The notes under the pieces were generated by a model. That model did no database searches and was not told the DNA's origin. It worked only from the letters and a program-made list of their open reading frames with translations. Positions 7,212 through 35,824 of a DNA stretch of 35,824 bases are shown piece after piece. Positions within the stretch are counted from its first letter, which is position 1. Every line of letters starts with the position of its first letter. Position numbers and translations under genes: made by a program. The stretch spans positions 1 to 35,824 of the forward strand of contig RXIK01000116.1 in assembly GCA_004211975.1 (NCBI GenBank), in the 5' to 3' direction. Origin of the DNA: Methanosarcinales archaeon (lineage in GTDB: Archaea > Halobacteriota > Methanosarcinia > Methanosarcinales > Methanogasteraceae).

Positions 7212-8402
7212 ATGAAAGCAGTGATCCTTGCAGCAGGCGAAGGCACAAGAATGCGCCCGCTAACCACAACACATCCCAAGGTGATGCTTCCTGTTGCAAA
7301 CAGACCGATCCTTGAGCACATCATCAAATCAGCAAGAGACGGGGGGATCACCGACTTTGTATGCGTGGTCGGATACCGAAGCGACATGATCCGGGATTAT
7401 TTTGGCGATGGCAGACAGTTAAACATCCACATCAATTATGTGGAGCAAAAGCAGCAACTCGGAACAGCGCACGCAATAGGAACAGTTCAGGACCTCGTAG
7501 ATGATCGATTCATCGTTTTAAACGGGGATGCACTTGTCAAATCATCTGATGTTTATTCTCTGATGAAACACCGCGAAGATGCCGTGATGGCAGTTAAAGA
7601 GATCAAGGATCCAGGCAAATACGGCGTTGTGAAGACATCTGGCGGCAGGATCATTGAAATAATCGAAAAGCCGGAGCGTGCCACAAGCAACCTTGTGAAC
7701 GCGGGAATATACCTCTTTTCAGACAGTATCTTTGAGAGCATCAGAAAAACCGGGAGATCAAAGCGCGGTGAATACGAGATAACCGATTCAATAATGAGAT
7801 TAGTGTCGGATAACGCTGGTGTTGGCTGCATGCTGCTTAACACGTGGATTGACATCGGAATGCCGTGGAACCTGCTTGACGCAAACGAATTCCTACTATC
7901 AGACATCAAAACCGAGATTTCAGGCGAGATCGAACCCTATGCCACACTAAAAGGAGAGGTTGTGATAGGAGAGAACAGCATCATCCGTAACGGCGCATAC
8001 ATCACAGGACCTGTCATCATCGGAAACAACTGTGACATCGGTCCAAACTGCTATATCAGACCGGGCACAACTGTTGGCAACAACGTTCACATAGGAAACG
8101 CCGTTGAGATCAAAAACAGCATAATAATGAGCGGAACAAAAATTGGGCACCTCAGCTATCTTGGTGACAGCGTCATCGGGCATAACTGCAACTTTGGCGC
8201 CGGAACAAAAGTTGCTAACCTGCGGCACAACGGGAAAAATATCCGCGTGACAATAGATAAAGGATCAACCGACACCGGCAGACGAAAACTTGGCGTGATC
8301 ATGGGCGACTGCGTGCACACCGGGATCAACACAAGCATCAACGTCGGCGTGACGATGGCTGCCGGGAGGGCAACGCGTCCGGGAGAAGTCGTGATGCGAT
8401 GA
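7212..8402 (+). CDS. bifunctional sugar-1-phosphate nucleotidylyltransferase/acetyltransferase (archaeal GlmU-like)
   Basis: MKAVILAAGEGTRMRPLTTTHPKVMLPVANRPI; EKP motif; C-terminal beta-helix with GTKVANLRHNGKNI. Confidence 0.92.
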   Translation: MKAVILAAGEGTRMRPLTTTHPKVMLPVANRPILEHIIKSARDGGITDFVCVVGYRSDMIRDYFGDGRQLNIHINYVEQKQQLGTAHAIGTVQDLVDDRFIVLNGDALVKSSDVYSLMKHREDAVMAVKEIKDPGKYGVVKTSGGRIIEIIEKPERATSNLVNAGIYLFSDSIFESIRKTGRSKRGEYEITDSIMRLVSDNAGVGCMLLNTWIDIGMPWNLLDANEFLLSDIKTEISGEIEPYATLKGEVVIGENSIIRNGAYITGPVIIGNNCDIGPNCYIRPGTTVGNNVHIGNAVEIKNSIIMSGTKIGHLSYLGDSVIGHNCNFGAGTKVANLRHNGKNIRVTIDKGSTDTGRRKLGVIMGDCVHTGINTSINVGVTMAAGRATRPGEVVMR

Positions 8403-8836
8403 TGCCCCAATGCGCATAGGTTATGATTTTTTTTGGTAACTACTCAGGCAGGTTGATTGGTCGACAAATTGCGATTCTGTACTTTCTGGCAAGAAAAATA
8501 ACCGTGGAGTGCGCGGAGGTTTAAGAGATCGGTTAGTCGTTTTCCACCCTCCCGCGTTCCTCTGCGCATTTTGCGGCATTGCGTTAGATCAGATAAACGC
8601 AAAGGCGCAAGGTTTGAAATCACAGAATCCATCAAAATCAGGATATCGATTGGTCCGGATGAAATATAACGCTACAATTTCTCGGCACTACGCCAATATT
8701 CATTGGTGAGGGCACGGATTTAATTAAAAACAGAACTATATTATACTGCCAAAACGTTAATTTTATACGATGAAGTGTTACAGAGATGGTGTTAATTGAC
8801 TAAAGTCTTTCTAAATTTAAATCATGCAGTAAGTAT

Positions 8837-9334
8837 TTATTTTAAACTGCGGATAAAAGTTTCTAATCCTTTTCTCATTATTCCGCATTTTAATCCTTTA
8901 TCCCCAAGTGGTGTCAACAAGCGTTTTGTGTTTTTTGGTGTAGGACTTTTTGAGTGATTTATAATAACAGCACCCCACTTAACATTTTGGAAAAGTCGAG
9001 CACCCGCCAATTTCGTATTAAATATATTGTATGTATTCAATAATTGCTTTACACCATGAGAGACATCCCTTCCCTTCAATTCAACTAAACAAATCGCCTT
9101 TTCCGGTTCATTGTGAGTGTGCTTGAAGTAATAAATCAGTAAGTCACAAATAGGTTCTCCGGTGTTTGCAATACCAAGATATTGGTTGAATTGCTGTCGA
9201 TTTTCATCCGAATCAAGATGGAAAAAAAGAAATGTTTCATCTCTCCCCGGTTTTATTGATACAGACACTCCACTTTCATTGAAACTTGTGCCATGATGAA
9301 GGTGGTTTGCGAGTAACAGGTTAAATGGCACCAA
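8837..9334 (-). CDS. putative PD-(D/E)XK-like nuclease, partner of the adjacent ATPase
   Basis: ICDLLIYYFKHTHNEPEKAICLVELKGRDVSHGVKQLLNTY matches a D-(x)n-(E)xK pattern with downstream Q; 5 bp from upstream ATPase stop; TTG start. Confidence 0.55.
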   Translation of the reverse strand: MVPFNLLLANHLHHGTSFNESGVSVSIKPGRDETFLFFHLDSDENRQQFNQYLGIANTGEPICDLLIYYFKHTHNEPEKAICLVELKGRDVSHGVKQLLNTYNIFNTKLAGARLFQNVKWGAVIINHSKSPTPKNTKRLLTPLGDKGLKCGIMRKGLETFIRSLK

Positions 9335-9339
9335 ATCAC

Positions 9340-10743
9340 CTACAAATCAAAATAAAGATTGGACACATAATCAGATACATTGCCAAATGTGTCCCAGTCG
9401 ATTAAATCATCTTCTTCGAATATATCTTTTACAGTGTTACCATCAAAAAGATATGCTGCTACGTTGTCCGAGTCAATGAAACATGAATCATTCTTCAACT
9501 TGAACTTAGCCTCTAATTTTTCCTTGCCGCTCTTTTTAAGTTCATAAGCCTTGGTCAAGTTTGAAATATGGTCAACTAAATAAGGGCTGTGTGTGGTAGT
9601 AATTACATTCAAACCGGAATTTGCCATCATAGCTAAAAATTCCATAATTTCTATTTGAGCTTCAGGATGTAAATTCATCTCAGGTTCGTCTATTATTACT
9701 AAATCCCTTTCCTCTGCCACATATCTAAGGTAAAGCACTAAAGGGATTAAGTCCTTTATACCCGAAGACACTGGCGGGATGTCAAAGACGGTAGCATCGT
9801 CTTTAAGCTTAAATAAAATTTCAATAGCGTTGTCTGGCTTTTCAATAGTTTCAATCCCGCCGTAAAGAATGTCATTCTCTAAAATTTCTGATAACTCTAT
9901 ATATCGCCTAATTTTGGGGTCTTTTTCCGCCAATTGTTGTCGTCGACTTTGGTTTTTGAAATCGCATGCAGTCAAGATGGTACGTATTAAATCAGCTACT
10001 GGCATAGACATAATCAGTTCGTTTTCATTCTTATTTGATGCAATCTCTGTTGGTATTGTCTCCTTGCCCGTGCGACCGCGAATTGCAGGCAAAAATTGTA
10101 TTATGCCGGTCCTTTCGGCTGGGAAAAAATAAGTACCTTTATAATATGCCTGGTGAATTCGCATAAATACAAAAGAGGCTATTATTTCTTTAGTGATATA
10201 TCTTGGCAGTTCCTGTATTTCTTTATTTGATCTGGTAAATATGTATATATTAGGGTCTTCCTTTTGAATATACAATTCTAAAAGTGCCACACCATCTTCA
10301 TTTTCACTCACTTTTCTTCTAAGAGACGGTATATTTTGGGATGGTGCATATTTTTCGTTGTTCAATTCTACAGCCATAACCAAATTTTCAAATGAAATTG
10401 TTTGACTCCCTAATAGTCTTGGCATATACTTTGGTAGAAGACGGGCAACATTGGATATGTATTCGCCCCCAAATTCTTCAATGAAATTTTTCGTGTCGAT
10501 TTTTGCGGTCCCATTAACTAAGAGACTTTCAATGGCATCTTCGATAACCTCATAACGTTCGCTTAGTTTCTCCCTTGAATATGCAGTGTAGTAATGCTCC
10601 CACATTTGTGGAGTAAACAGACATGCGATCAAAGTGGCAGTCCAAGTTTTACCAGTACCATTTGGACCTACAAATACTGTTAAAGGCTTTGTTTCAATTT
10701 CGCACTTCTCAATCGGTCCAAAATTTTCAATTTTAATCAACAT
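9340..10743 (-). CDS. AAA/OLD-like (AAA15/AAA21-type) ABC-class ATPase
   Basis: Walker A GPNGTGKT, SSGIKDLIPLVLYL signature, Walker B DLVIIDEPEMNLHPEAQ, H-loop TTTHSPYLVDHIS. Confidence 0.9.
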   Translation of the reverse strand: MLIKIENFGPIEKCEIETKPLTVFVGPNGTGKTWTATLIACLFTPQMWEHYYTAYSREKLSERYEVIEDAIESLLVNGTAKIDTKNFIEEFGGEYISNVARLLPKYMPRLLGSQTISFENLVMAVELNNEKYAPSQNIPSLRRKVSENEDGVALLELYIQKEDPNIYIFTRSNKEIQELPRYITKEIIASFVFMRIHQAYYKGTYFFPAERTGIIQFLPAIRGRTGKETIPTEIASNKNENELIMSMPVADLIRTILTACDFKNQSRRQQLAEKDPKIRRYIELSEILENDILYGGIETIEKPDNAIEILFKLKDDATVFDIPPVSSGIKDLIPLVLYLRYVAEERDLVIIDEPEMNLHPEAQIEIMEFLAMMANSGLNVITTTHSPYLVDHISNLTKAYELKKSGKEKLEAKFKLKNDSCFIDSDNVAAYLFDGNTVKDIFEEDDLIDWDTFGNVSDYVSNLYFDL

Positions 10744-11048
10744 TTACAAAACCCACATTTTCTTGTATAATTTGTCGTTTCACAGTTCTTGCATATAATA
10801 TATTCTCTTTGTTCGTGTTATGTTTGTTGAAATGTGGCAAAAAAGTAGTTCCTCCTAAAACTCATGCACCATTTTGGTGCCCCGGACGTTGAGCGTTAGC
10901 GGAGCCCGGGGTTTGGTGACTTCAGTAAACTGTTTGTTCGGGAGTCCTTTATTTGTGTGGTTACCTATAGTTGGAAGGAGTCGGTGCAACCAGAGAACAC
11001 TGTGAAATGTGTTTTTTCCCGGGTGTTTGTGTTTGTGTGGGGGTTTGT

Positions 11049-11213
11049 TTAGTCCTGTAGGCTGTATGAGAACCCGCATTCGGGGCAGAAGTACATGAAG
11101 ATCTTGGTTCCCTTCTTGCTTTTTTTGATGGTGGTCTCCATCCATGTGCCGCAGACGGTGCATTTGTGGTCATGAAGCGTGCGGTTTCTTTGTTGGTTTA
11201 CACCTTCAGTCAC
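11049..11213 (-). CDS. small zinc-ribbon protein (54 aa, GTG start)
   Basis: TEGVNQQRNRTLHDHKCTVCGTWMETTIKKSKKGTKIFMYFCPECGFSYSLQD with two CxxC pairs; GTG overlaps TGA of the upstream gene. Confidence 0.65.
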   Translation of the reverse strand: MTEGVNQQRNRTLHDHKCTVCGTWMETTIKKSKKGTKIFMYFCPECGFSYSLQD

Positions 11214-12280
11214 GGTTTCGCACCTCGAACTGATGATAGTCCTTTGATCAGCCCGAAACACCCGGTCAGCATCATATCGCCGTAGGGCGCGGCAAAAGTA
11301 ACCTTGTGTCTGCTTTGCTTTGCCAGGTGTCGGTTTGGTCCGGTGACGATGATCTGCGGCATCTTGGGGGGTGTGTTTTTGATGTGGCATCCGTGCCCGC
11401 CGCTCTCGAACACTTCTTCGAATGTCAGCGTTCCTGCTGCGAGTTTTTCTATGTATGTGTCGAGCGTCTTGATGGTTATCTGCCGTGTATGGTGCTCAAA
11501 TACGCCGGTGATGCGGTTATCTATCAGTATGGCGCAGAGCGTGTGCCCGTTTCCGATGTTCAGCACGATCATTGGTTGACCGGGGTCTTTTGCGGCACTT
11601 GCTGCTCCGAATACTGCCGCAGGTCCGGTGTCCATCATAATCACATCATCGCAAACATGCGACAACGACCGCGCGACTGAGGTCATGCGCGTAAGATAGG
11701 GGGGGATTGTTTCCGGAGTGTATGCGAACGATCGCAGACTGCCGCCGCGGTCTATCACTTCCTTTAAGTGCTCGAACCTGAATATGCGGTTGCTGCCCAT
11801 GCTTTCGCCATGGTCTTGCACGGCAACTGCGAACGTGCCCGGCATATCCACGCCGAACAGTCCGAGCATCTGTTCTATTGCGGGCAGATCAATATCTCCT
11901 GTTTTGATGCGGACTGCATCAGCAGGGGAATCTTTGTTCTGTGGCATGATGGTTACACCAAGACTGCGTACACGATTAAGATCATCATAGATCGTTTTTG
12001 CAGCAGTTTCCGTTGAATAGACCTGCAACCCATCTTTTAGATGTTGTTTTATGGCGCGGACGCAGGCGCCGCCGCCCATCACACCTCCGGTCATAAAGAT
12101 GTCCTTGCCCAGGTGCGTGGCATCTCCGATCTGTTTTGCCACGATCGTGGTTTGTGATGGTAGGACCATTTTGAAACACTGCTCGATCTGCTTTTCGCTA
12201 TCGTATATCAGGATATCCTGTGTTCCAGCGCCCACGTCGATCGCAACAGCTGATGTATCAATCGAACTTGATGTCATCAT
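11210..12280 (-). CDS. DUF1786-like ASKHA-fold protein
   Basis: AIDVGAGTQDILIYD phosphate-1-like motif, VLNIGNGHTLCAIL, GGVMGGG; length 356 aa. Confidence 0.75.
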   Translation of the reverse strand: MMTSSSIDTSAVAIDVGAGTQDILIYDSEKQIEQCFKMVLPSQTTIVAKQIGDATHLGKDIFMTGGVMGGGACVRAIKQHLKDGLQVYSTETAAKTIYDDLNRVRSLGVTIMPQNKDSPADAVRIKTGDIDLPAIEQMLGLFGVDMPGTFAVAVQDHGESMGSNRIFRFEHLKEVIDRGGSLRSFAYTPETIPPYLTRMTSVARSLSHVCDDVIMMDTGPAAVFGAASAAKDPGQPMIVLNIGNGHTLCAILIDNRITGVFEHHTRQITIKTLDTYIEKLAAGTLTFEEVFESGGHGCHIKNTPPKMPQIIVTGPNRHLAKQSRHKVTFAAPYGDMMLTGCFGLIKGLSSVRGAKP

Positions 12281-35707: not shown

Positions 35708-35824
35708 GTCAACTAAGAAGACGCGATTACTCGCGCCTTCTCGTCTAAGAACGGTGCGTGAAACTTTCACCTCACACCGCTCAAGCATTTTGTAACCCTT
35801 TCTGTCTTGGGCAGCAGTTCACAT
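35708..35824 (-). mobile_element. 3' end of a group II intron (domains V and VI); rest lies beyond the window
   Basis: Domain V, minus 35782-35749: GAGCGGTG-TGAGGT-GAAA-GTTTCA-CG-CACCGTTC (34 nt, AGC triad, GAAA loop, 2-nt bulge). Domain VI 35745-35711 with unpaired A opposite 35714, 7 nt from the 3' end ..GTTGAC. Confidence 0.82.

Follow-up and report, generated by a model that had tools for sequence, protein, structure and literature searches.

A two-gene pair of an OLD-type ABC ATPase and a PD-(D/E)xK-like protein in a Methanosarcinales archaeon, a candidate defence system

Gene layout and insertion site

Two adjacent open reading frames (ORFs) lie on the minus strand of a 35,824-nucleotide stretch of Methanosarcinales DNA, which was analysed as a whole and is referred to here as the window (Table 1). 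Gene A encodes an ABC/OLD-type ATPase, the predicted sensor and regulator, and gene B, which follows it, encodes a small PD-(D/E)xK-like protein, the predicted effector nuclease; both ORFs were found where an earlier note on this DNA had placed them. The gene B ORF opens with TTG at 9334, directly followed by GTG at 9331. Since its homologues have an ATG at the position of this second codon, the start is probably GTG 9331, giving a protein of 164 aa and an A-B gap of 8 bp. The gap of 5 bp and the length of 165 aa reported in the earlier note hold if translation begins at TTG 9334, but not if it begins at the GTG.

Table 1. Features of the locus, in window coordinates
Feature	Position	Strand	Evidence or remark
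Gene A, 467-aa ABC/OLD-type ATPase	9340-10743	minus	ORF, AAA_15 and PD-T4-4_A matches, motifs, dN/dS
Gene B, 164/165-aa PD-(D/E)xK-like protein	8837-9334	minus	ORF, conserved residues, profile match, model and fold search
Active-site core of gene B, from D63 to G87 (DLLIYY...LVELKG)	9071-9145	minus	
Inserted segment, 2588 bp	8439-11026	none	BLASTN against same-genus genome G038
Dispersed genomic repeat, one end of the insert	8436-8576	plus	
Left core flank, sugar-1-phosphate nucleotidylyltransferase (GlmU-like)	7212-8402	plus	
Right core flank, conserved protein	11210-12280	minus	Present in 15/15 relatives searched

The pair sits in an AT-rich region with a GC content of 0.364, compared with 0.480 for the whole window, and GC3 is 0.33 in gene A and 0.31 in gene B versus 0.56-0.58 in three core genes. 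BLASTN aligned window positions 8001-8438 and 11027-11698 to positions 226-669 and 674-1343 of G038, a genome of the same genus that has 4 bp in place of the insert, between the same two flanking genes spaced about 240 bp apart. The low GC and GC3, the empty site and the shared flanking genes confirm the AT-rich insert in a core region that had been described before and, judged from this genome comparison, the two-gene cassette is one gained by recent insertion.

Exactly at the insert edge lies the dispersed repeat, 138 bp long, of which the genome carries 40 copies or more; it begins GTAACTACTCAGG and ends in a GC-rich hairpin. The insert was examined for tRNA genes, an integrase and clear terminal repeats, and none were found. 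A non-exhaustive search of the window recognised no known defence genes beside the pair, and in other genomes the A-B pair stands beside different genes. Near the contig end, an Rfam group II intron match was recorded at 35708-35784 on the minus strand (56.3 bits).

The ATPase and its small partner

With residues counted from the ATG at 10743, gene A displays a Walker A motif (GPNGTGKT, 26-33), a signature (SSGIKDL, 326-332), a Walker B motif (DLVIIDEPE, 347-355), a D-loop (NLHPEAQ, 357-363) and an H-loop (TTTHSP, 382-387), and a Pfam search matched it to AAA_15 at 8e-28, in agreement with its earlier description as an OLD/AAA15-type ATPase carrying Walker A, signature, Walker B and H-loop. 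The domain search of gene A gave no TOPRIM match and the protein ends at 467 aa, consistent with the claimed lack of a C-terminal TOPRIM; nor was an HNH (PtuB-type) match found in the pair, so that the distinction drawn in the earlier note from the nuclease types of PtuB (HNH) and OLD (TOPRIM) holds.

Amongst PADLOC models, gene A scored best against PD-T4-4_A (7e-51) and second best against PDC-M47A (8e-44), and it shares about 25% identity with members on bacterial plasmids. PDC-M29, to which gene B has a weak match, was rejected as the family on the score of the ATPase, which reaches 2.5e-20 for PDC-M29 against the far stronger PD-T4-4_A value. In a tree, the window ATPase falls within a six-member archaeal group (95/89 support) apart from PD-T4-4, within the limits that long branches set on this tree.

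Gene B carries D40, C62-D63, E84-L-K86 and Q96; the D-x(n)-ELK-x(n)-Q arrangement previously read from the protein is thus recovered as D63, E84-L-K86 and Q96, with D40 in addition. An alignment of 11 diverged homologues shows no variation at D40, C62, D63 and E84 and at least 90% conservation of K86 and Q96. Searched alone, gene B matched nothing in Pfam, NCBIfam or PHROG at a significant level; its best PADLOC score was just 1.4e-3, for PDC-M29B, and it matched neither the PD-T4-4_B nor the PDC-M47B model. Searches of PDB sequences with the profiles of the small proteins returned chance matches only, and nothing was found in plasmid and phage records searched with the small protein or in viral contigs searched with profile A3.

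Profile comparison with hhalign aligned the archaeal B profile to the bacterial B set (PD-T4-4_B/PDC-M47B) with a probability of 94.2% and an E-value of 1.2e-7, and placed D40, CD63, ExK86 and Q96 in register. The bacterial B profile also recovered the archaeal B at 7e-5 in a whole-genome search of G160. When the archaeal B profile was run against 1440 ORFs, the weak matches that did not belong to its own family, with E-values of 5e-4 to 0.8, were small ORFs adjacent to ATPases. Two further small proteins resembling PD-T4-4_B/M47B (L161, 1378-1950, and L162, 1384-1956) have no recognised ATPase in the flanks that were fetched. An archaeal B subclade of family f9 (L016, L155, L156 and L159) has an ECTTGK-like stretch replacing ExK, possibly an altered active site.

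An AlphaFold model of gene B from a 16-row alignment was of moderate quality (pLDDT 57.6, pTM 0.62), with residues 61-120 at a pLDDT of about 70-77; the model from a six-row alignment (pLDDT 36.7) was unusable. Its elements follow the order helix, two long strands, a helix with Q96 and a strand, and the ELK ends the second strand. Comparison of this model with PDB folds gave no match at or below 1e-3; the sub-threshold top 50 include Mus81-Eme1, PaqCI, BamHI, MspJI, BstEII, HamA and XPF, and many of these look-alikes below significance are PD-(D/E)XK nucleases. The outcome of modelling and fold search, a check named in the earlier note, was divided, with PD-(D/E)XK enzymes amongst the look-alikes but none at 1e-3 and a pTM that stayed at 0.62. 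Together with the alignment to PD-T4-4_B at the catalytic residues, the model supports, without proving, the PD-(D/E)xK fold suggested for the small protein; the earlier note had named the lack of such a fold as a ground for rejecting its reading, and neither the alignment nor the model points to this lack.

Distribution, pairing and selection

Within the order, 6 out of 186 genomes encode the gene B protein, and a close relative (L009) comes from a Methanosarcinales MAG. A sample of 394 genomes from the phylum yielded 13 matches to the B profile, one per genome; an ATPase lies directly upstream in 12, and the 13th is cut by a contig end. Five of the 13 B proteins were absent from the profile, and an ATPase precedes all four of these that were testable. 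Viewed from the other side, each ATPase match with E <1e-20 in the same sample is followed by a small ORF with CD...ExK or a variant of it. Homologues of the two genes that never co-occurred had been set beforehand as grounds for abandoning the pair; instead, all archaeal B homologues with intact upstream sequence (12/12) follow an ATPase.

Most close relatives show the same A-B layout on prophage-derived contigs, with many prophage copies, and relatives are also carried on small plasmids; in PADLOC, the plasmid relatives that served as yardsticks are scored as PD-T4-4_A plus PD-T4-4_B pairs. The genome of the window holds a second, diverged pair of an ABC ATPase and a PD-(D/E)xK-like protein (L002/L137, G000 C163:5064-7012), which PADLOC scores as a clear PDC-M47A/B (1e-224 and 3e-63). 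On a viral contig (L021, 1653-2579), a shortened ATPase relative of 309 aa stands beside a 947-aa ORF, not a small nuclease.

Comparisons of the window with homologues gave a dN/dS of 0.21-0.25 for gene A and 0.21-0.40 for gene B. These values show purifying selection, so that neither ORF is a product of chance. At the level of sequence, the analysis establishes that both proteins are linked to the family, that they are strictly paired, that selection acts on each gene and that the pair was gained by insertion.

Proposed function and relation to known systems

We consider it quite probable that the pair represents an archaeal subfamily within the defence family that combines an OLD-type ABC ATPase with a separate PD-(D/E)xK nuclease, as in PD-T4-4 and WonAB. 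The likely defence role proposed in the earlier note gains support from these relatives, from which we infer by analogy an antiviral role for the pair in this archaeon; the proposed architecture of an ATPase and a separate nuclease stands, but it had been overlooked that the PD-T4-4/WonAB layout was already tested in bacteria. In WonAB, the best-studied pair of this architecture, from a Vibrio prophage (2025), neither gene is dispensable, and the same is true of the ATPase motifs and the nuclease lysine; infection is abortive, with translation halted and DNA intact (PMC12137116). By analogy, the window pair would most likely stop virus-infected cells from making new virus. Gene A may dimerise around ATP bound between its Walker A and signature motifs, while its C-terminal extension would hold gene B and keep it idle. 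A signal caused by the virus could then alter the state of the ATPase and activate gene B, which would cut nucleic acid through D63, E84, K86 and metal ions, and the infected cell would halt before virus assembly. RNA is a plausible target because the arrest by WonAB hits translation without loss of DNA.

The two-gene layout with a small nuclease-like partner, the relatives on small plasmids and the insert in the window could also reflect a toxin-antitoxin-like selfish module, in which B would be a toxic nuclease neutralised by A and kept for its own stability instead of antiviral defence. This is unlikely, as gene A has a complete set of ATPase motifs and evolves under purifying selection, and as B of WonAB is toxic only in the presence of A (PMC12137116), which rules out simple neutralisation in that system. 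It is less probable still that gene B regulates the ATPase without being a nuclease, or as a catalytically dead one, a role that would fit its lack of library and significant fold matches and the replacement of ExK in one archaeal subclade; the clade of the window, however, retains D63, E84, K86 and Q96, and these residues line up with those of the bacterial nucleases. In the least probable reading, the pair would act in DNA repair or recombination as a factor of OLD/RecF type and only resemble a defence pair. The superfamily of the ATPase does include RecF/SMC-type repair proteins and gene A has a weak SMC_N match, yet the patchy distribution in the order and the phylum (13/394), the insertion polymorphism, the low GC3 and the many prophage copies fit defence and not housekeeping.

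A more ambitious form of the defence reading, which we regard as rather doubtful, is that of a distinct archaeal branch with a nuclease invisible to current models, sensing archaeal viruses and arresting cells by cutting archaeal RNA; if so, archaeal abortive infection of this type would be under-counted. Bacteria are already known to have this two-gene architecture, and the novelty is modest, consisting of the archaeal clade and a nuclease that escapes current models. The pair extends a bacterial abortive-infection architecture that has experimental support to archaea of the methane cycle and their relatives, in Methanosarcinales and in further families of their phylum. Since no current PADLOC or Pfam model covers the nuclease, the system may escape surveys in which both genes must be present. 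The presence of two diverged pairs in one genome makes it possible to ask whether each senses different viruses.

Septu (PtuAB), OLD, Gabija and PARIS share a distant OLD/ABC-type ATPase with the window, combined with HNH, TOPRIM or other effectors. The PADLOC candidate PDC-M47 is closer by its ATPase and differs in that its B model does not match the window protein. The combination of an OLD-ABC ATPase and a novel REase of Krishnan et al. 2020 belongs to the same architecture class, as described in a citing paper (PMC12137116). PD-T4-4, found in E. coli by functional selection (Vassallo et al. 2022; PMC9519451) and with a nuclease listed as PD-(D/E)XK (PMC10952713), likewise has an ATPase followed by a PD-(D/E)xK protein; it provides the best match to gene A, and the catalytic residues of the B proteins align. 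In contrast, ATPases of the window type form their own supported group in the tree, and the window B has 164 aa versus about 200 aa and is missed by the PD-T4-4_B models. WonAB, with homologues reported mainly from Gram-negative bacteria, resembles the window pair, as described in PMC12137116, in its OLD-type ABC ATPase joined to a PD-(D/E)xK protein, in the same ATPase motifs and in the active-site lysine.
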